IMG/VR virus record: IMGVR_UViG_3300047554_000854
Span: 1-53,918 of that record
Length of the DNA stretch: 53,918 bases
Source of the DNA: a virus
Direction: 5' to 3' (one strand)
The position numbers were made by a program, and so were the translations under genes. Each line of letters starts with the position of its first letter. Position 1 is the stretch's first letter. This document shows positions 39,957 through 53,857 of the stretch, piece after piece. Under the pieces are notes generated by a model. The model was given only the letters and a program-made list of their open reading frames with translations, did not search any database and had not been told where the DNA came from.

Positions 39957-41345
39957 ATGGGTAAATCAATCATGGAGCAGCTTGCTCTCCTCTCGCCAGA
40001 AGAGCAGGCTGAAGCTCTACGCGGTATGGACCCAGACCAACTCCTGTGGGACTGGTCTGTATGGGGTCGCCCAGAACAACAGGCTCCCGAAGGTGACTGG
40101 AACGTATGGCTCGTACTTGCGGGTCGTGGTTTTGGTAAAACCCGTCTTGCATCTGAGTGGGTTCGCGAACAAGCTAAATACACAAATACGGGCCAACGCC
40201 GTTTCGGTCTAGTTGCCCGTACCGCTGGTGACGTGCGTGACGTTATCGTTGAAGGTGAATCTGGAATCCTTAACGTTACGCCTCCTAGCGAGCGTCCGCT
40301 CTACGAGCCGTCTAAGCGACGCCTAACCTGGCCCAACGGAAACGTAGCCTCTCTCTTTACCGCTGACGAGCCTGACTCGCTCCGTGGTCCTCAGTTCACT
40401 CACGCCTGGGGCGATGAGATTGCAGCCTGGCGACAGACTCCTGACGCTGCAGGTATGACCGCGTTCGACAACTTGCGTGTTGGTACTCGTCTAGGAGCCA
40501 ACCCTAAAATTCTTGTTACCACCACCCCGAAACGAACTCCACTGCTTTACAAGCTCATTGAAGAGTCGAAAGGTGGTGGCGTTGCAATCACCCGTGGTTC
40601 GACCATGGACAACGCTGGTAACCTTTCTGGCGCATACCTCGACACAATGCTTGGCGTTTACGAGGGAACCTCTCTCGCCCGCCAGGAACTTTATGGTGAA
40701 ATGCTCGAGGCCATGGAAGGCGCAATGTGGACGGAAGAGCTTATCGAGCGTAGCCGTCACTCGTACATGCCTCAGAGTGCTCCGATGCGTGTAATCGGCG
40801 TTGACCCTAGCGTTGCCGAAAACCCACGAGACGAATGTGGAATTGTTGTTGTTGGCTCGACTTCGGAGTACGACCTCTACAAGCGTCAAGCCTGGGTTTT
40901 GGAGGACGCATCGGTTCTCGGCTCGCCAGACGTTTGGGCACGCAAAGTTGTTGAGATGGCTCGTAAGTGGGGTTGCCCTGTTGTAGCCGAAGTAAACCAG
41001 GGTGGAGCCTTGGTTCGAAACGCCATCAACACAATCGACCCAACCATCAAGGTTCTTGAAGTCCACTCAAAGCAGGGTAAGCAGCTCCGCGCTGAGCCAA
41101 TCACCATGGCATATGAGCAAGACCGCGTTCACCACGTTGGAAAGAGCATGGTTGACCTCGAAACTCAGATGATTACGTGGATTCCAGGCGAGGGAAAGTC
41201 TCCAGACCGCGTCGACGCACTGGTTCACGCCCTCACTGCACTACTTATTAAGCCTCCAGCAGGCTTCTCGGGCGGAAAAATCCGTGCTAGAAGCCTTGCT
41301 GCACGCCGTTTACCAGGTTCTAGCTCAACTTTTAGGGTTCGATAG
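39957..41345 (+). CDS. terL: Terminase large subunit
   Basis: 462 residues. ATPase domain: GRGFGKT (56-62) as Walker A, HAWGDE (149-154) as Walker B with catalytic E154, then ILVTTTPKR as the coupling motif. Nuclease domain: GVDPSV with the first metal aspartate, VVAEVNQGG in the middle, and PDRVDALVHALTALL with the last acidic residue. This is the phage packaging motor that cuts and pumps DNA into the prohead. Length is normal for the family. Start uncertain: ATG 39957 has no ribosome site but follows a TAGAAT element; ATG 39972 is the alternative. Confidence 0.92.
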   Translation: MGKSIMEQLALLSPEEQAEALRGMDPDQLLWDWSVWGRPEQQAPEGDWNVWLVLAGRGFGKTRLASEWVREQAKYTNTGQRRFGLVARTAGDVRDVIVEGESGILNVTPPSERPLYEPSKRRLTWPNGNVASLFTADEPDSLRGPQFTHAWGDEIAAWRQTPDAAGMTAFDNLRVGTRLGANPKILVTTTPKRTPLLYKLIEESKGGGVAITRGSTMDNAGNLSGAYLDTMLGVYEGTSLARQELYGEMLEAMEGAMWTEELIERSRHSYMPQSAPMRVIGVDPSVAENPRDECGIVVVGSTSEYDLYKRQAWVLEDASVLGSPDVWARKVVEMARKWGCPVVAEVNQGGALVRNAINTIDPTIKVLEVHSKQGKQLRAEPITMAYEQDRVHHVGKSMVDLETQMITWIPGEGKSPDRVDALVHALTALLIKPPAGFSGGKIRARSLAARRLPGSSSTFRVR

Positions 41346-42028: not shown

Positions 42029-43834
42029 TTGGGAATTTTTAAACGTGATGGTGGCAATCAGCCGCGCAAGCAATCACCTAACGGCGTTCGTGCTACCAGC
42101 CCTGGCATGAGACCTACTCAGCCTCCTGTATTTCGCGATTCTTTTGGAATTGTCTACGCTACCCCTGCTGCTTTCAACGAACCACGCCCTCTAACTGCTG
42201 CTGCAGCTCAAATTAAGATTGGCGACCAGGGCGAGGCCCTAATTTTCAAGTCTCGACGTCAATCGGCGTCTTCTGCATGGCAGAAGGAGGCTTGGGAGTA
42301 CTACGACGCGATTGGAGAAATCAAATATGCGTTTAACCTCGTTGCTTCAGTTGTATCACGTATCCGACTCTATGCTGCTAGCGTTGATGACCCAGCAGAG
42401 GCTCCTGTTACGGTACGTAAATCAGAGGTAGTCAAGCCAGAGCTTGCTGCCGCAGCTGAGCGAGCCCTTGCTCGCCTAGATAGTGCCTACGGAGGCCAGT
42501 CAGGTTTGCTCAAAGACTGTGCTCTAAACCTTCAGGTTACTGGCGAGTGCTATCTTGTTCAGGTTCCAGAGCGTATTGGCTCTGGCTTGCCTGAGTCTTG
42601 GGATATCCGCTCGACTGACGAGCTTCAGGTTGATGCCAAGGGTAACTACATCATTAACCCACGCCGCGAGGTTGGTAATGGTGGAGCCAGCATCATGTCT
42701 GGTGGTGGCGCAGAGGTCATCAGACTCCCTAAGGACGCTTTTATCGGCCGTATGTGGAAAGCACACCCACGCTACTCCCAGGAGTCTGACAGCTCGCTAC
42801 GTGGCCTCCTAGACCTATGTGCGGAGCTCTTGCTCCTCAACCGCACCTTCCGTGCGACCGCCCGCTCTCGCCTCAACGCTGGTGCTCTTTACTTGCCAGA
42901 CGGCCTCTCGGTTGCAGCTACCGCTGACCCTGACTACCCTTACGACGAAGAGGGAAACTACAACGAGCAGTACAACGCTGAAGAGGCTGCTGACGATTTC
43001 GAAGACCAGCTCATCGATGCGATGACCACTCCTATCAAGGACGAGGACTCGGCATCTGCAGTTGTTCCACTTATCATCCGTGGTCCTGCTGAACTTGGCG
43101 ACAAGATTAAGCAGTTCAAGTTTGAGCGTTCATTCGACCCTGCTCTAGCCGAGCGTTCAGAGCGTGTCCTAGAACGCATCATGCAGGGCCTAGACGTTCC
43201 TAAGGACATCGTTTCGGGTCTGGCTAACGTCAAGTACTCAAATGCCCTCCAGATTGACGAGAGCCTCTACAAGGCCCACATTGAGCCACTGATGTTGCTC
43301 ATTGCTGACGCCATCACAGTTGTCTACTTGCGCCCATACCTTATCGCCAACGGCTATCCAGAGGCAGAGGTAAACCGCCTTGTTATCTGGTACGACCCAA
43401 GCCAGGTTGCTACTCGCAACGACCGCGCTGCAGACGCAGACGCAGGCTTCAACAACATGGCGGTATCCTACGAAACTTGGAGACGTGCTCACGGCTTCTC
43501 GGACCAGGACGCTCCTACTCCTATGGAGTTGGCTCTTCGTCTTGTAATCAATAAGGGTGCTATCACCCCTGAACTTACCGAAGCAATGCTTGGTGCTGTT
43601 GCTCCAGAAATCATGGAGAAGATTAAGGGCATCCAGCAGGCTAACTCGGTAGCACCAGTTCCGCCAGAGGTCGAGGCAGCTCTCGCCCAGGCGGCTCCAA
43701 CTGGACCAATTAACCCAACCGAATCAGCGGAAGGTCAGGAAGTTACCGCACCCGAGGGACTTCTAGCTGAGCCATCTGCCGCTCCAACCGAGGCTGCTCC
43801 TCCAGGGCTAGCCGAACCAACCCCTGAAGGATAA
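42029..43834 (+). CDS. Portal protein
   Basis: 601 residues. It matches the actinophage portal type: a basic N-terminus, WEYYDAIGEIKYAFNLVASV, then a long mixed region with GECYLVQVPERIG, DSSLRGLLDLCAELLLLNRT, and a helical C-terminal part with LDVPKDIVSGLANVKYSNAL. The C-terminal 80 residues are Pro/Ala/Glu-rich. The protein forms the dodecameric ring through which DNA passes. The start is TTG 42029 with AGGA upstream; no in-frame ATG lies nearby. Its position after terminase supports the call. Confidence 0.85.
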   Translation: MGIFKRDGGNQPRKQSPNGVRATSPGMRPTQPPVFRDSFGIVYATPAAFNEPRPLTAAAAQIKIGDQGEALIFKSRRQSASSAWQKEAWEYYDAIGEIKYAFNLVASVVSRIRLYAASVDDPAEAPVTVRKSEVVKPELAAAAERALARLDSAYGGQSGLLKDCALNLQVTGECYLVQVPERIGSGLPESWDIRSTDELQVDAKGNYIINPRREVGNGGASIMSGGGAEVIRLPKDAFIGRMWKAHPRYSQESDSSLRGLLDLCAELLLLNRTFRATARSRLNAGALYLPDGLSVAATADPDYPYDEEGNYNEQYNAEEAADDFEDQLIDAMTTPIKDEDSASAVVPLIIRGPAELGDKIKQFKFERSFDPALAERSERVLERIMQGLDVPKDIVSGLANVKYSNALQIDESLYKAHIEPLMLLIADAITVVYLRPYLIANGYPEAEVNRLVIWYDPSQVATRNDRAADADAGFNNMAVSYETWRRAHGFSDQDAPTPMELALRLVINKGAITPELTEAMLGAVAPEIMEKIKGIQQANSVAPVPPEVEAALAQAAPTGPINPTESAEGQEVTAPEGLLAEPSAAPTEAAPPGLAEPTPEG

Positions 43835-43836
43835 CC

Positions 43837-44319
43837 ATGCACGACCTAAACAACCCAATGGCAATGAAGGGCAGCCCAGCACTAGCTCAGTCGCTGGCTA
43901 AGTTCCTTGCGTCTACCGTTGTACTCAAGTTCACCGCTCACGGCTTCCACTGGAACGTCAAGGGCAAAGACTTCCGCGAGATGCACGACTTCTTTGGCGA
44001 CATCTACGAGGACCTAGAAGGCTCGCTAGACGCTATTGGCGAGAACATCCTTAAGCTCGGCTACGACGCACCTTACATGCTGACTGACTTCCTAGAGCTT
44101 TCGTGCATCGAGCCATGCGACCGCATCTCTGACGGCGACCACCACAAGATGCTGCAGCGTCTACACGCTGACAACCACAAGCTACTCAAGGAAGCCTTCG
44201 AGGCTTTCAAGATTGCTAGCGACTGCAACGAGCAGGGCATTGCTGACTTCCTAGCTGGACGCATTGACATGCTTCAGAAGTGGAACTGGCAGCTCTCGGC
44301 AACACTCAACATCCAGTAG
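43837..44319 (+). CDS. dps: Dps-like ferritin
   Basis: 160 residues. The Dps signature is plain: KFTAHGFHWNVKGKDFREMH followed by DFFGDIYEDLEGSLDAIGE. Ferroxidase ligands H38, H50, D54, D65 and E69 occupy the family spacing, so the iron-binding site looks intact. Dps forms 12-subunit shells that oxidise iron with peroxide and can bind DNA. The N-terminus is short and not strongly basic, so DNA binding is less certain. It sits two bases after portal and before virion candidates, so the product might be packaged or protect DNA during assembly. Confidence 0.9.
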   Translation: MHDLNNPMAMKGSPALAQSLAKFLASTVVLKFTAHGFHWNVKGKDFREMHDFFGDIYEDLEGSLDAIGENILKLGYDAPYMLTDFLELSCIEPCDRISDGDHHKMLQRLHADNHKLLKEAFEAFKIASDCNEQGIADFLAGRIDMLQKWNWQLSATLNIQ

Positions 44320-46298: not shown

Positions 46299-49200
46299 AT
46301 GTCTGACTACATGGACAATCTCTACGAGAACTTGAACGAGGAAAGCCTCGCAGCCATCACTGCCTCCCTTGGATATAACGATGGAGCTAACAAGGGCTTC
46401 TGGCGTAAGCAGCCTCGCAAGAAGTGGGGTAAGGGCAAGGGTCAGTGGATTGAGATGGGTGCGAGACTTCGTGCTCTCTTCAAGATTGAGGGACAGCTAA
46501 AGAGCATCACTGGTCGTTCTGGTGGTTCTGACGGTACTCCTGACGGCGTTCGTTTCCTTCCAGACGCAGGTCAGCCAGGTGTTGACAGCAACAAGATTTA
46601 TGGCGTAAAGACCGAGCACGTCGAAGAGATTCAGGCTACTCTTCCAGAGAACTACGTTGAGGCTCAGGGCGTTGACGTTGACCGTCAGCAGACTGGTACT
46701 GGCAGCGTTGTTTCTACTGCTAACATCCCAGACATCGAAGACATGGAGACTGCTGACGTAACTCCTGACGACATCCGCATGATTGACGAGGGTGTCAACT
46801 CTGTAGAGGGTCAGGAAGCAGAAAACTACAAGAACACTGACGAAGGTAAGCAAGTTGCTAGCCTTGACCAGGAAGCCGCAGAGGGCGTCCTTGAGACCCC
46901 AACCGAGATTCAGAACCTCCTAGACCAGGGCGGTCAGGAGATGTTTAGGGACGAGCCATCTTCGGCCGTACCGACTCCAGAAGACCTTGGTGACATTGCT
47001 GCGCCTAAGAAGTACAAGGGTCTAAAGGAAATTGCTCCTGGCGTTTTTGAGTATAAAGATGGCTCTGACCGCTACCGTATGCGCCAGGGCAAGGATGGCA
47101 GATGGAGAATTGACTCCGAAGCTAGCAACTCTGACTATGACTTCGATAGTGCTGCCGATAGAAGAGGCGCTAAAGACTCGTGGTACAAGTTGGACGGCTC
47201 GTTTGACAGCGTAGACGACGTTATGGAAAACTTCTTTGCCGTTGAGCCTATCGCCCCTAGAGGCGCTAAGAAAGCTCCAGAGGATGTTATTCCTCTTAGC
47301 GATGCTACGGACAAAGAAAAAGCCGTAACCGAACAAATTTCAAAAGCTGCTAGCGACATCGCTGCTCTCCAGATGAATGCCTCGACACGTAACGATGCTC
47401 CAGAGGCAATGAGAAAAGCTGTTGAAGGTCTAGACCTTACCGACGTTAGACCAGGATATCTAGAAAGCCTCAAGACTGTAAACGAGTCACTAGGTGAACT
47501 AGATACTCGCGTTAGCCAAAGCACTAAGTTTGAAAGAGAAAACGAAGCTAAAATTGCTGAAGCTGCTCTAGCAAAACTACAAGGTCCTGCCCAGGGTGGC
47601 GACCTAACCAGCCCTAAGACTCTCAAAGACTTCGCTGGCTTTGACGCTGTAGACCGTACTGTAGCTGACGTTGTACTCAACAGCCCATCACACTATTGGG
47701 GCGACAACGCTGACATAGAAAACTACAGCAAAGCAGAGTTTGACGCTACTGAAGCAGTCCTTAAGAAGTTCTCTGAGCTAGAAGATTCTGACCTTCCTGA
47801 CTCTGAGATGGTTCCAGAGTTTAGGGACTTTGTTCAGAACTTGGACGGTCTAGAGGGGGGCCTTCGTAGCGATATCCTATCTTCGCTTGACTACTACGAC
47901 AAAGAAAACAAGAAGAAGATTGCAGCCCTAGAACAAGCTGACGACCTAGTCCAGCGTGCCATGGATGGCGAGCCTATCAACATTGACGACGCTCTAAGAA
48001 GCCGCCCTCTAGGCGCAGATGTCGATGACGAAGACGAGTTCGACTACGACAAGGAAGAGCCTTCTGAAGAAGACCTAGCTCGACTTGAAAGTGTAGAGCC
48101 TGACTTTGATATGGACGCTGACTGGAACGACCAGCGTCGTACCGTCGATGTTGTAACACCTTACGACGTATCTCCTGGAGACTACATCCTCACCAAGGAT
48201 GGTCGAGTAGGTCTTGTTCGCGACATTGAAGAGAAAAATGATGGCGACTTCCGAGTAACTTACGTCGAGTCTGAAGATGGCGGAGAGCAGTCCTTCAACC
48301 AGCCATGGGACGGCAACATGAAGCTTGTCACCCTTGGTGTTGGTCCAGAGCCTAAGAAGGTAGACACACCTGCTCCTGCCCCAGCTAAGACTCCTGACGT
48401 AACTCCAGATGTAACTCCTGACGATGACGAAGAAGAGGTACTGGACACCCCCGCTCCAGACACCGCCAGAAGTGACTATGCCCCAGAGGACATCGAGCCT
48501 GGCGACGAGTTCTACACCAAAGACGGTTCTAAGATGCTTGGAACTGTTGTTTGGATTAGAAAGAGCTCGACTCAGCGTGGCCAGTGGGAGATGAAGATTG
48601 CTGACCCAGAGACTGGTCGCCCTATGAGCGGTACATGGCCGTTCACGCAGGGAGAGACTCTCATCAACAAGCCAAACGGTGAGAAGCAGCCTGAGCCAGA
48701 AGTAACTCCAGAACCAGAGGCAGTCGCAACACCTGAACCAGAAGTTACTCCAGAGCCAGAGGTAGTTAACCCTGAGCCAGAGCCAATTCCTCTAGTTGTT
48801 GCTGAGCCAGAGGCTCCAGCTGTAGCTATTCCTGATGCTGGTCCAGCTGTAGTACCTGCTACTAAGCGTACTAAGCCTAAGGTCGACAAGACCGAGCGCA
48901 GACTACCTGAGCCAGTCAAACCTACCGAGATGGAGACTGATGATGGTCAGTCTGAAATTTACTTTCCTCCTGGCGGCGGAGGCCTGGGCGGTCCTGATGA
49001 CCCAGAGGGTCCGAACGGTATCCGTAACGCCAAGGTAGACGTTCTTCGTGATGTAAATGGAAACGTCATTTACGAAGCCGACGAAGATGGTAACCCAATC
49101 TACGTAAACGGTAAGAAGATTCCTATGCTTGACCCTGAAGCGGTCAAGGCTCTTATTAAGAAGTTCTTCCCTAACGCAAAGATTACCCCAGATGGCTTGG

Positions 49201-50573
49201 GTATTAACATCTGGCGTCAGTCGATTGACGGCAACACCTTCGAGATGGGTATTAAGCGCACTGACGCTGGTAACCACGTTGTTGTAGTTGCAGTCACAGA
49301 CGACGCTACTGGTGAGCGTAAAGAGTACATCAGCATTGGTGACCGTAAGTCATGGCAGTCGGTATGGAACTTCCGTAAGGACGGTGGAGGTAACAGCCCA
49401 TTCGCTATTCACCGACTAATTACTGGCACAGCTAAGAGTGCTAAGTTCGGTCGTGACGACTACTCTAAGAAGCCAACCGCTCTAGAGCGTTTCCAATACT
49501 ACCGTCGTCAGAAGAGCATCACCCCTGGTGTACCTCGCTTTGCTACGGCTCAGGAATTCTTCAACGGTATCGTGAATGGTCGCGAAGAGAAGCTAAACTT
49601 CTCGCTACCTATGAACCCTAAGACTGGTATGCGTTACACAATGGATGAGTGGATGGACCCATCCAACCTCCAGGCACGTCTCGACAGCCCTACTTGGATG
49701 ACAGTTAGAGCTGCTCAAGTTGGCTCTTTGAAGAGTGCTATGGATAAGGGTCTTGCTACTGGAGACTACACCGATGCATACTTCTTGATGCTACAGATGA
49801 AGGGTCGTCTACCTCAGGACTTGAACTCGCTTGCTAATCTTCGCAACATGTTCACTGACTACTTTAAGGAGAACTTCCCTAAGGCTAGCCAGCAGAAGAT
49901 TTCTGGTGTTGTTACCTCTGTATCGAACCTCATTACTAGCGGTTTGAAGAGCCCTTCGAAGCTTGAGACCCCATACATCAGTGCTGACGGTCACACCGAA
50001 ATCAAACCTGGTATGTGGATTAAGTACAAGAACATCATGGGTAAGTGGTCTGTCGGTAAAGTTGTGGACCGCCGTCCAAGCGACGACATTGCTCGACCTA
50101 AGCAGACTCCTGATGGTGCATCGTTCCAGCACCACGACCAAGTTGTCGTTGAGTTTGCCAACGGTGAGAAAATCGACCAGATTACTTCTGAGCACCTATA
50201 CCCTCTGAAGAAGACTGACCCAGAGTACAACAACCCTACCAAGTATGAAGGTAAGCCAGAAAAGAGCGAGCGTATCGCTGAGCGTGAGGCCATTATGGGT
50301 CTTCTCTCGGAGATGTACGATGGCGATGGTGACAACGAAGGCGATGAGGATGGCGATGGCCCTACTCCGCCAGCTGGCCCATCTAAGGTCGATGACCTAG
50401 CCCCTGGTGATGGTTTCTACTCTAAGTCTGGTGACCTACTAGGCGAGGTTGTAAAGATTCAGCCAATCAACTCTGGTGGTAAGGCTGGATTTGCTATCGC
50501 CTACGTAACTCCTGAAGGTGAGACCAAGGTTGTTAAGGTTGCAGCTGGAGAACTCCGCGGCCCAAAAGCGTAG
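46299..50573 (+). CDS. Giant polyvalent protein, zero-frame part
   Basis: 1424 residues before a TAG at 50571-50573. A basic N-terminal segment (FWRKQPRKKWGKGKGQWIEM, about 34-53) is followed by acidic low-complexity sequence. Four short beta-barrel-like repeats each begin with x-PGD or PGM: SPGDYILTKDGR (about 623), EPGDEFYTKDGS (about 732), KPGMWIKYKN (about 1234) and APGDGFYSKSGD (about 1367). A PEPEV repeat linker lies at about 797-833. The middle (about 900-1220) is unrecognised. Near the stop the sequence contains a canonical -1 slippery heptamer, and the next frame continues as conserved coding sequence. Probably an injected or head-associated multi-domain protein. Confidence 0.75.
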   Translation: MSDYMDNLYENLNEESLAAITASLGYNDGANKGFWRKQPRKKWGKGKGQWIEMGARLRALFKIEGQLKSITGRSGGSDGTPDGVRFLPDAGQPGVDSNKIYGVKTEHVEEIQATLPENYVEAQGVDVDRQQTGTGSVVSTANIPDIEDMETADVTPDDIRMIDEGVNSVEGQEAENYKNTDEGKQVASLDQEAAEGVLETPTEIQNLLDQGGQEMFRDEPSSAVPTPEDLGDIAAPKKYKGLKEIAPGVFEYKDGSDRYRMRQGKDGRWRIDSEASNSDYDFDSAADRRGAKDSWYKLDGSFDSVDDVMENFFAVEPIAPRGAKKAPEDVIPLSDATDKEKAVTEQISKAASDIAALQMNASTRNDAPEAMRKAVEGLDLTDVRPGYLESLKTVNESLGELDTRVSQSTKFERENEAKIAEAALAKLQGPAQGGDLTSPKTLKDFAGFDAVDRTVADVVLNSPSHYWGDNADIENYSKAEFDATEAVLKKFSELEDSDLPDSEMVPEFRDFVQNLDGLEGGLRSDILSSLDYYDKENKKKIAALEQADDLVQRAMDGEPINIDDALRSRPLGADVDDEDEFDYDKEEPSEEDLARLESVEPDFDMDADWNDQRRTVDVVTPYDVSPGDYILTKDGRVGLVRDIEEKNDGDFRVTYVESEDGGEQSFNQPWDGNMKLVTLGVGPEPKKVDTPAPAPAKTPDVTPDVTPDDDEEEVLDTPAPDTARSDYAPEDIEPGDEFYTKDGSKMLGTVVWIRKSSTQRGQWEMKIADPETGRPMSGTWPFTQGETLINKPNGEKQPEPEVTPEPEAVATPEPEVTPEPEVVNPEPEPIPLVVAEPEAPAVAIPDAGPAVVPATKRTKPKVDKTERRLPEPVKPTEMETDDGQSEIYFPPGGGGLGGPDDPEGPNGIRNAKVDVLRDVNGNVIYEADEDGNPIYVNGKKIPMLDPEAVKALIKKFFPNAKITPDGLGINIWRQSIDGNTFEMGIKRTDAGNHVVVVAVTDDATGERKEYISIGDRKSWQSVWNFRKDGGGNSPFAIHRLITGTAKSAKFGRDDYSKKPTALERFQYYRRQKSITPGVPRFATAQEFFNGIVNGREEKLNFSLPMNPKTGMRYTMDEWMDPSNLQARLDSPTWMTVRAAQVGSLKSAMDKGLATGDYTDAYFLMLQMKGRLPQDLNSLANLRNMFTDYFKENFPKASQQKISGVVTSVSNLITSGLKSPSKLETPYISADGHTEIKPGMWIKYKNIMGKWSVGKVVDRRPSDDIARPKQTPDGASFQHHDQVVVEFANGEKIDQITSEHLYPLKKTDPEYNNPTKYEGKPEKSERIAEREAIMGLLSEMYDGDGDNEGDEDGDGPTPPAGPSKVDDLAPGDGFYSKSGDLLGEVVKIQPINSGGKAGFAIAYVTPEGETKVVKVAAGELRGPKA

Positions 50574-50606
50574 AGGCTTCTGACTCTACGCCTCGGGCTG
50601 CCGAGG
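50561..50606 (+). promoter_or_regulatory. Programmed -1 frameshift site
   Basis: Slippery heptamer C-CCA-AAA (50561-50567), in phase with the zero frame. It is followed at once by GCGTAGAG (50568-50575) pairing with CTCTACGC (50584-50591), and by CCTCGG-GCTG-CCGAGG (50591-50606). The zero-frame TAG lies inside the first stem. The two hairpins share one base and could stack. The spacer to stem 1 is zero rather than the usual 5-9 nt, so stem 2 or a rearranged fold may be the actual stimulator. Confidence 0.8.
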
Positions 50607-53600
50607 CAACCCCAGAAGCCCCGCGTAAGACTGGACTCTTCAATGAATACTCTTCCGACCGTCTAAATCAGGCTACCGCTGAGAGCACCCCTCTCACGGA
50701 GCTGGGGTTTGACCCAGAAGAAGAGATTACCGTCTATCGTGGCGTACCCGAAGGCGCTGAAGGAATTAATCCTGGCGATTGGGTAACTGACAACAAGCAG
50801 TTGGCTCAGGACTACGCTGGCACTGGCAAGGTTGTCTCGATGAAAGTCAAGGCAAAAGACCTACTAGCTGATAAGTCATCTGGAGAAGGTGCTTACACCG
50901 AAGAGATGGTCTATCGTCCAGCTAAAGCTCTAGACAGCCTAGGCATCGACTTCCAGTCAGCAACTATGGATGCTAGCGGTACTCGCTTGCCTACTCCTGG
51001 AGCCTTCACTGGCCGCTTCCAGAAAATTATGGAAGGTGCTAAGAACTGGAAAGACGTTGCTAAGCGTCTAAAAGGTGAGACAGTAACCTACTTTGACTTC
51101 GAAACAACTGGTATCCCAGACTACGACGGTCAGAACATTACCAACGACCCAGTGCAGCTTGGCGCAGTTCAGGTTAAAGATGGAAAGATTGTAAAGCGTT
51201 TCAACGTCTACATCAATCCAGAAAGCAAACTATCTGATTGGTCAGCTAATAACCTCAAGCGTGACGTTGTAGATGAGAATGGCGACAGAGTTCTTGATGA
51301 GAACGGACGTCCAGAGTCTACGCTAGTCACTCCAGAGTGGTTGGCTCAGCAGACCAGCCAGGAACAGGCTCTGAAGGACTTCATTGAGTTCATCGGACCT
51401 AACGCTTTGCTTGGTGGTCAGAATGTCCCATTCGATGTTGAGATTCTAAAGCGCATGGCTGACAAGTTCGGCATTGACCTAGACATCGCTGGAACCATCG
51501 ACTCGAAGGACCTTGCTTCACTTCTTCCTAAGTATGACCCAGAGAAGGGAATCGACGGACCTAAGGCTCCAGACCGCAAGACTGGTGAGATTAGAGCAAC
51601 CTCTAGCCTCGGTCCAGTTGCAAACTTCCTAGGCTTTGAGCCAGCTAACTGGCACTCAGCTGATGGTGACGCGGAAGACTCCTACAACTTGGTCTCGAAG
51701 ATTATCGACCGTGCTGGTAAGGAAGGCAACGAGGACCTAAGCCTCCTCGACTTCCCTGCAATGGCAGAGCGTTACAAGCAGCGTATGGACGAGTTCAAGG
51801 CTGTTGTTTCCCCTGACAGCCCAATCACCGAGGCTCAGCAGCGTGCTCTACAGAACTTTGCTGACTCCGAATCTTTGAACGTCTCTGACAAAGCTAAGGA
51901 GGCTCTTGCTAACGCATCAACCCGTGGTGAAGCGGCAAAGGCATTAGCAGATATCCACGCTGAAGATGAAGCAGATAGAGCTAGGTCAAATCGACCTCTA
52001 GGTGCTAACCCAGAGAATGGAACCCCTGAGTCATTTGAGCCAGATTTCGATGACGAAGAGTCTGACCCTGACTTTGATGATGTAGACCTTTCTGACTTCC
52101 TAGCCGAGATTAACGAGACCCCTATCCCGCAGCCAGCACCTAAGCCAGTTGCAAAACCTGCAGCTGTTGCTGGTTCAGTCAGAGAAAAGGCCTCAGAGTT
52201 TTCAGCTAGACGCCGTCTAGGTATGAAGCGCAATGAGATTCCTAAGCTGGCTATTGATGTAGAGAATTTGACAGAACTTAGAATCCCTGGTGCTAAACCA
52301 CGTGTAAGGGCTTATGCCCCAACCAGCGAGGCAATAGAGGTTAAAGATGAGATGGTGGCTCTAGGTAGAGAGCTAGTAGACCAGTCTCTAGCCGAGGTAA
52401 CAGCCGAGCTAAAGTCAGAAGGAATTATTGACGAATCTTTCGAGACTGTAGACGAGGCAGTTCAAGCATTTAGTGCCATGAACCTAGAGGCAAACCAAGA
52501 GCTTACAGATACTCAGCGGTTGATGGTTCCGACCATTAGAACCCTGAGAATGGATGCTTTTGATGAACTTACCGCCGAGCAGCGCAAAGAGATTGCCAAC
52601 GAGCTAAACTCAAAGCTTGGTCTTGAAATGACAGAAGCTCAGGTTTTGGATTTTATGGAATCTGGCGACCCAATAGAAATAAAAGACAAGAGCGAATACA
52701 ACAGCATTTGGGATACAGAGAAGCTTTCCGAGGAGCAGCTGGAGGCCAACAAGCTCATCAACGTTAAGCGTAGAGCTGTCAGAGAAAAAATTGAAGACTT
52801 GATTAATGAGAAAGTCTTTAAAACTCCTGTTGGCGATTACAAACTAACCGACAATGAGTGGGGGATTGTCAGGGAACTGCATCTAAAAGAGTTAGCTGGC
52901 ATTGTAGCTCTACAAAAGAGCGATGAAAAGCTTGCTCAGATTCAGAAATTAGCTGACTCCATGAATGAACTAGGGAAAACTAGAAGAAAATTTGACCCTG
53001 ACACCTTAACCAAAGAGATAAACAAACGCCTTCGCGATAAGGCAATGAAGACGCTTAAGGATAATGGATTTAAGTTTGACTCGGTACCACTAAGCGCGTG
53101 GGATGGAGTATTAATCTCTTCTGGCAGTGGACGTAAACCTATTAGCGAGCGAAGCGCTCTAGGTAAGATGTTGCTTGAAGCTTTCCAGTATGTCCCGCAG
53201 AATGTGCTCCTTGCGTCTATTGACATGTTGAAGCTAAATAAACGTAAGCTGACCATTAGGCAGACTAAACCACATGTTCGCGCTCATTTCATGGAACGTG
53301 ACCTCCTAATTAGAGGCGGAACTGCTGACTTTTTGCTACATGAGTTCTGGCACTTTGTCCAATCTGGTAATAAAAATATTCGTGCCCTCGAACACGCATG
53401 GCTTTATGGGAGAATGGCAGATAAAGACGGACAGCTTCCTGGTCTTATTGCAACTGGAGCTTCGAGCGCCGAGCAAGCTTTTGCTGTTAACGGATTGAAC
53501 GAAACATACATTTCTAAGCAGTACGAGGATTTCCGCAGCGGATGGGCCTTTTTCCACCCAAAGAACTCTGCCACCGAGGTAACTACTACATTGATGCAGG

Positions 53601-53857
53601 ACTTGTTTACTGATGTTGGAAGATACTCAAAGCCAAAGGGAAGAACGGCAAAGACAGGTAATGGCCCTAGTACTAAGGTCTATGAGGACCCTTACTACGA
53701 TGAGGCAACTGGCATCTGGTATGCTGACAGTACCAAACAAACAGTAATCCAGCCTAGACTTGTCTATGGTCGCGATGCCTCTCAGGGCATAGACTATGAC
53801 TTCAAAGCTTTTGGATTCGGTCTGCTTATGGCACTACACGACTGGGATGCAAAATGA
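50567..53857 (+). CDS. Giant polyvalent protein, -1 frame part: ART, DEDDh exonuclease, HExxH
   Basis: 1096 residues in the -1 frame, giving a roughly 2519-residue fusion with the 46299 ORF. The frame is open from 50537, but has no ATG, GTG or TTG before 50801, which falls inside a domain; so frameshifting is the best explanation. Fused numbering: an ADP-ribosyltransferase-like domain with VYRG (R1481), INPGDWVTD and GAYTEEMVYRP. Next a DEDDh 3'-5' exonuclease with FDFETTG (D1600, E1602), GGQNVPFDVEIL and WHSADGDAEDSYNL. Then acidic and helical linkers, and a zinc-protease-like HEFWH (2348-2352). This matches polyvalent proteins of phages. The stop overlaps the next gene (ATGA). Confidence 0.75.
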   Translation, partial: SVEASDSTPRAAEATPEAPRKTGLFNEYSSDRLNQATAESTPLTELGFDPEEEITVYRGVPEGAEGINPGDWVTDNKQLAQDYAGTGKVVSMKVKAKDLLADKSSGEGAYTEEMVYRPAKALDSLGIDFQSATMDASGTRLPTPGAFTGRFQKIMEGAKNWKDVAKRLKGETVTYFDFETTGIPDYDGQNITNDPVQLGAVQVKDGKIVKRFNVYINPESKLSDWSANNLKRDVVDENGDRVLDENGRPESTLVTPEWLAQQTSQEQALKDFIEFIGPNALLGGQNVPFDVEILKRMADKFGIDLDIAGTIDSKDLASLLPKYDPEKGIDGPKAPDRKTGEIRATSSLGPVANFLGFEPANWHSADGDAEDSYNLVSKIIDRAGKEGNEDLSLLDFPAMAERYKQRMDEFKAVVSPDSPITEAQQRALQNFADSESLNVSDKAKEALANASTRGEAAKALADIHAEDEADRARSNRPLGANPENGTPESFEPDFDDEESDPDFDDVDLSDFLAEINETPIPQPAPKPVAKPAAVAGSVREKASEFSARRRLGMKRNEIPKLAIDVENLTELRIPGAKPRVRAYAPTSEAIEVKDEMVALGRELVDQSLAEVTAELKSEGIIDESFETVDEAVQAFSAMNLEANQELTDTQRLMVPTIRTLRMDAFDELTAEQRKEIANELNSKLGLEMTEAQVLDFMESGDPIEIKDKSEYNSIWDTEKLSEEQLEANKLINVKRRAVREKIEDLINEKVFKTPVGDYKLTDNEWGIVRELHLKELAGIVALQKSDEKLAQIQKLADSMNELGKTRRKFDPDTLTKEINKRLRDKAMKTLKDNGFKFDSVPLSAWDGVLISSGSGRKPISERSALGKMLLEAFQYVPQNVLLASIDMLKLNKRKLTIRQTKPHVRAHFMERDLLIRGGTADFLLHEFWHFVQSGNKNIRALEHAWLYGRMADKDGQLPGLIATGASSAEQAFAVNGLNETYISKQYEDFRSGWAFFHPKNSATEVTTTLMQDLFTDVGRYSKPKGRTAKTGNGPSTKVYEDPYYDEATGIWYADSTKQTVIQPRLVYGRDASQGIDYDFKAFGFGLLMALHDWDAK

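Follow-up and report, generated by a model that had tools for sequence, protein, structure and literature searches.

Are two long, overlapping open reading frames (ORFs) in a phage contig separate genes, or are they the two parts of one giant protein that a fraction of ribosomes joins? The question is raised by the virus contig IMGVR_UViG_3300047554_000854, an IMG/VR-type record analyzed over its full 53.9 kb (positions 1 to 53,918; hereafter the window). As judged from sequence, programmed -1 frameshifting very probably joins the two ORFs, and the junction comprises the following elements:

46299..50573, + strand: zero-frame ORF (ORF1), giant head-module polyvalent protein (short product, 1424 aa)
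50385..50567, + strand: C-terminal SH3/Tudor-like domain, ending RGPK just before the stop (alignment A1; AlphaFold model)
50547..50550, + strand: GGAG, Shine-Dalgarno (SD)-like, 10 nt 5′ of the heptamer, possible 5′ stimulator
50561..50567, + strand: slippery heptamer C-CCA-AAA, in phase
50568..50574, + strand: 7-nt spacer GCGTAGA
50571..50573, + strand: zero-frame stop TAG, 3 nt past the heptamer
50567..53857, + strand: -1 frame extension (ORF2), 1096 aa, presumably joined by frameshifting

The -1 frame is open from 50537 to a TGA at 53855-53857, its first ATG, GTG, or TTG lies at 50801, and the predicted fused product has 1423 + 1096 = 2519 aa with the junction sequence RGPK followed by SVEASDS. 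A first-pass annotation of this DNA had proposed such a frameshift, and its particulars are exact: the 1424-residue ORF ending at 50571-50573, the in-phase heptamer at 50561-50567, and the -1 frame open from 50537 with 50801 as its earliest start, while the roughly 2519 residues expected for the joined product agree with the computed length. The frameshift itself is supported by the heptamer, the immediate stop, a suitably spaced downstream structure, and a -1 ORF with no early start, all of which are kept in homologues. Foldseek matches to the AlphaFold model of the ORF1 C-terminus are of SH3/Tudor type but weak, none reaching E ≤ 0.001.

Most ribosomes would halt at the TAG at 50571 and release the 1424-aa protein, while a fraction would slip by -1 on C-CCA-AAA, tRNA-Pro and tRNA-Lys probably re-pairing in tandem to CCC-AAA. 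Slippage would be aided by the RNA structure 8 nt downstream and perhaps by the SD-like GGAG 10 nt upstream. Slipped ribosomes would continue in the -1 frame and yield, presumably at a low level, a 2519-aa protein with ART-like, DnaQ-like exonuclease, and HExxH zincin-like domains.

By its substitution pattern, the -1 frame ahead of its first start codon is real coding sequence under purifying selection. Between 50627 and 50800, the window is 62-68% identical to an ART-like domain that ends another protein in three relatives (L078, L057, and L053), with a nonsynonymous divergence (pN) of 0.23-0.26, a synonymous divergence (pS) of 0.74-0.76, and pN/pS ratios of 0.31-0.35. The relatives L112, L114, and L113 give pN/pS values of 0.30-0.46 over about 100 pre-start codons. 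An ART-type domain had been said to begin well before 50801, and homology and purifying selection indeed start 174 nt earlier.

Direct searches with the two ORFs were nearly empty, so the portal gene was chosen as search anchor. ORF1 (1424 aa) has no Pfam or PHROG match, a direct protein search of IMG/VR gave no ORF2 relatives, ORF1 and ORF2 searches matched almost nothing among cultured phages, and a scan of bacterial genomes gave no relatives. Scanning IMG/VR with the portal gave 80 loci, many with an ORF1 homologue; two more IMG/VR scans used A2 and A3, subsets of the ORF1 C-terminal alignment, the full alignment A1 being too divergent. Junctions were read from the ORF ends of the portal loci and of the A2 and A3 scans.

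Thirty junctions carry CCCAAAA (19) or AAAAAAA (11) ending 0 or 3 nt ahead of the stop. Past each of them the -1 frame runs for 265-1098 codons, in some cases up to the contig end, and the junctions, from many metagenomes, group into 24 clusters that share less than 80% DNA identity. Among the 1393 distinct ORF ends of all fetched loci, 31 have one of these heptamers 0 or 3 nt ahead of the stop, and all but one of these belong to the giant gene, which argues that the placement is not due to chance. Elsewhere, Pro-Lys is spelled C-CCA-AAA in 11 of 648 cases. The putative frameshift element is not confined to the window phage. In several relatives the gene is a single uninterrupted, fused ORF, and these spell the RGPK/RAPK motif GGA CCT AAG, GGA CCT AAT (RGPN), or GCA CCT AAA, all non-slippery; they are a natural control for the slippery site. 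The first-pass annotation would have counted against frameshifting any homologues in which the two ORFs have an independent start codon and no slippery site; the homologues with non-slippery codons are in-frame fusions instead. A CCCAAAG at a pair of genes of 252 and 374 aa in L003-L005 was judged a chance occurrence; the second gene has its own ATG.

The RNA downstream of the heptamer is predicted to fold as follows:

50575..50582, + strand: 5′ arm of the main stimulatory stem, GGCUUCUG (minimum free energy (MFE) fold)
50590..50607, + strand: inner hairpin GCCUCGG-GCUG-CCGAGGC, within the main stem
50613..50620, + strand: 3′ arm of the main stimulatory stem, CAGAAGCC (MFE fold)

The main stem starts 8 nt past the heptamer, after the 7-nt spacer, and the fold has a z-score of -3.55, with none of 200 shuffles equally stable. 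At 29 of the 30 junctions the predicted structure begins +6 to +9 nt past the heptamer; the mean MFE of 55 nt is -21.0 kcal/mol at junctions and -9.7 kcal/mol in random stretches of the same loci, 1.3% of controls reaching the junction median. Because the hairpins differ in sequence and are unrelated in register, some being of the CCCCC-n5-GGGGG type and others having long GGGCTG...CAGCCC arms, position and pairing are conserved rather than the letters. Upstream, the anti-SD duplex energy averages -5.7 kcal/mol at 24 junctions and -2.5 kcal/mol in controls. An SD-like upstream stimulator also occurs in dnaX.

The proposed stimulator was revised. Two stems had been noted earlier, of 8 bp (GCGTAGAG/CTCTACGC, 50568-50575/50584-50591) and of 6 bp (CCTCGG/CCGAGG), and both exist; the 8-bp stem lies outside the MFE fold and was rejected as the main stimulator. 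It overlaps and competes with the MFE stem, and it abuts the heptamer, starting at the first base after it, so it would sit inside the ribosome during slippage. A comparison of homologues, which had been proposed for heptamer and stems alike, shows the heptamer kept and the 8-bp stem sequence not kept in the nearest homologue, L004, which retains the main stem in a longer form (GGCUUCUGAG/CUCAGAGGCC). The likelier stimulator is the stem 50575-50582/50613-50620, which encloses the second of the two noted hairpins (50590-50607).

The extension of the window is predicted to carry three domains:

50711..50926, + strand: ART-like domain, beginning 90 nt ahead of the first possible start (phrog_2579, E 4e-10; 66-69% identity to the domain in L053/L057/L078)
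51059..51787, + strand: DnaQ-like DEDDh exonuclease domain (RNase_T, E 5e-11; phrog_192, E 3e-17)
53015..53857, + strand: conserved C-terminal region containing HEFWH (53339-53353), a probable zincin metallopeptidase

The FDFET, NVPFD, and HSADGDA motifs of the DnaQ-like domain are intact by eye. The HEFWH and a downstream Glu are invariant in four homologues. By its motif the C-terminal region is a probable zincin; it has no Pfam match, its profile comparison with another zincin group is not significant overall (Prob 9.9), and the AlphaFold model of the ORF2 C-terminus is of poor quality, too weak to confirm a zincin. For relatives with a Pfam match, the zincin assignment is secure. Among the appended parts, the predicted HExxH zincin-like domain is the most constant, not ART. 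Apart from the short extensions of L046 and L102, all complete extensions have an HExxH, whether or not ART, exonuclease, or ArdC domains accompany it. In fused homologues that end on their contig the motif is located toward the C-terminus, and among the portal loci surveyed no frameshifted locus was found to have it in the zero-frame ORF. The split that the frameshift makes most regularly is thus between a form free of enzymes and one with a probable protease. Other extensions carry a Peptidase_Mx1-type zincin (L029) or an RNase_T exonuclease (L074), and those of L032, L057, and L065 have two tandem ArdC-N + MPTase-PolyVal pairs each (MPTase-PolyVal/ArdC, E 1e-37 to 1e-49). The tandem pairs suggest duplication of an anti-restriction module.

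What, then, might the two forms be for? The tentative proposal, to which slightly less than even chances are given, is that a tailed-phage clade uses a strategy like that of Gag/Gag-Pro-Pol, in which conserved -1 frameshifting would set the procapsid stoichiometry between an enzyme-free cargo or scaffold protein and a second form linked to a zincin protease and to host-takeover enzymes that are injected; during maturation, the protease would act on itself or on the short form. The shared N-terminal half would target the protein to the procapsid, and the frameshift would set the number of copies with protease and effector enzymes, which may be processed and/or injected with the DNA, as proposed for phage polyvalent proteins (PMC5512222).

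Several observations weigh against the explanation as a whole, the frameshift included. The zincin and ART assignments in the window come from motifs and from weak or unnamed family matches, the ORF1 C-terminus has no detectable homologue in any cultured phage, a few junction hairpins have modest z-scores, and the SD-like enrichment may be explained by conserved Gly-Glu codons. Some relatives appear to make only the fused protein, so not every lineage needs the short form. Finally, the -1 extensions of L046 (8386-9180) and L102 (6473-7267), 265 aa long, are without HExxH; by eye they look like an acetyltransferase-type domain, so that the frameshift can append non-protease cargo. Their match to the L098/L097 extension is confined to its first 265 residues.

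The alternative that survives best accepts the frameshift and makes the long form a cytoplasmic or structural product with no packaged protease or effector role. It would fit the separately annotated capsid maturation proteases of relatives, and it is unlikely, though it merits consideration, given that the gene sits after the portal, that its N-terminal domain is common to another polyvalent gene, and that ArdC, MPTase-PolyVal, and ART domains are typical of polyvalent proteins predicted to be packaged.

The remaining alternatives deny ribosomal slippage. ORF2 could be a separate gene with its own start, either the TTG available at 50801 or a non-canonical codon, reached for example by re-initiation after the TAG, and termination-reinitiation is common in phages. 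Such a start is highly improbable: no SD-like sequence precedes 50801, a start there would truncate the ART domain, for which homology and selection reach upstream as described, and the first start codon in the -1 frame of relatives stands anywhere from codon 19 to codon 132, with no fixed place. It would also leave the conserved heptamer, and its loss in fused relatives, unexplained. An equally improbable source of the long product is RNA polymerase slippage on A runs, which would give mixed mRNAs; A7 runs are present at 11 of the 30 junctions, but the other 19, the window among them, have no more than C3A4, which is too short for efficient transcriptional slippage, and a structure at +6 to +9 agrees with slippage of the ribosome. 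A sequencing or assembly indel, or a recently broken gene, can be dismissed almost outright, since the occurrence of single in-frame ORFs among the homologues is outweighed by the same -1 arrangement and slippery site in 24 junction clusters from many metagenomes and by selection on the -1 frame.

Programmed frameshifting of this gene can be set beside several known systems. Polyvalent proteins of phages and conjugative elements, including ArdC, MPTase-PolyVal, DdrB, and the N4 virion RNA polymerase (vRNAP), were described by Iyer and colleagues (PMC5512222), with MPTase proposed for autoprocessing ahead of packaging (PMC5512222). The likeness is a giant multidomain head-module protein with ART, nuclease, zincin, and ArdC-type domains; the difference is that here the enzyme part appears to be added by -1 frameshifting in many lineages, and the word frameshift is absent from the main text of PMC5512222. 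In retroviruses, frameshifting yields Gag and Gag-Pol, and enzymes are packaged through their attachment to a component of the capsid (PMC5009743). The logic is alike, with a heptamer and downstream structure, a presumably virion-associated front, and a protease/enzyme back at a lower level, whereas here the virus is a DNA phage, the protease is zincin-like rather than aspartic, and there is no reverse transcriptase. No homology to Gag/Pol is indicated, as the giant protein and the extensions searched have no such Pfam matches.

Frameshift-extended head proteins are themselves known in tailed phages, as in T7 10A/10B, T3, Lactobacillus A2, and Listeria PSA (PMC5009743). Those frameshifts extend an abundant coat or tail protein (by an Ig-like domain in T3 and A2), whereas the protein extended here is polyvalent and not a coat protein, and the 265-1098 aa added to it are mostly enzymatic domains. 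Tail assembly chaperones of the lambda G/GT type share the -1 slip on a slippery heptamer and differ in gene, size, and position: their site lies just before the tape measure gene, while the giant gene follows the portal and precedes the major capsid protein (MCP) gene. PRFect predictions list VIP2-ART and MuF-like pairs among unverified “false positives” (PMC10885494), which hints, on computational grounds, at possible frameshifting of head-linked ART genes; PMC10885494 gives no conservation or mechanism. In the open-access literature searched, no paper was found that connects frameshifting with polyvalent proteins in the way described here. Tail chaperones and coat proteins supply most of the known cases of frameshifting in tailed phages. 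In the present gene, frameshifting would form a conserved switch for giant polyvalent proteins whose domains are of protease, ADP-ribosylation-like, nuclease, and anti-restriction type. Such a switch would offer the phage a natural means of dosing the effectors that it packages, and DNA viruses would have a functional counterpart of Gag-Pol. Gene callers will split such proteins and lose the link between ORF1 and ORF2. The viruses that carry the element infect bacteria, are uncultured, and belong to a little-known group.

The setting of the giant gene agrees with a polyvalent role. The right end of the window contains:

39957-41345: terminase large subunit
42029..43834, + strand: portal protein, genomic anchor (phrog_776, E 1.6e-105)
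43837..44319, + strand: Dps/ferritin-like protein, next to the portal (Pfam Ferritin, E 9e-16)
46383..46682, + strand: N-terminal domain of the giant protein, GANKGFWRxQPRD..GRW.E.GA, common to a second polyvalent gene 5′ of the portal in relatives

The order is terminase large subunit, portal, Dps-like gene, two small genes, and giant gene, and protease and MCP come next in relatives, which is the linkage to virion genes that characterizes polyvalent proteins. The giant protein also appears to combine several effector or enzyme domains, as polyvalent proteins do (ART-like, DnaQ-like exonuclease, and HExxH in the window; ArdC + MPTase-PolyVal in relatives). The window portal is closest to those of actinobacteriophages, with 74% identity to Actinomycetia phage DSL-LC01 and 58-65% to Microbacterium jumbo phages, and in these phages large ORFs of unknown function, or labelled ADP-ribosyltransferase/helicase, lie between the portal and the capsid protease/MCP. 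The shared N-terminal domain may be a virion-targeting module or tag.

The ART domain of the window appears relocated into the -1 extension. In L078 and L053, the terminase ORF after the second polyvalent gene is broken past VRDVIVEGE by an intein-like sequence (ALALDTKIATPTGFVSMADVKVGD) that is absent from L057. Positions 50343-50426 of the window, inside coding sequence, match the fluoride riboswitch of Rfam at 19.1 bits, below the gathering threshold of 34, which is probably chance. The Dps/ferritin-like gene at 43837-44319, between the portal and the giant gene, occupies an odd site for a DNA-protection protein, and its product is possibly packaged.

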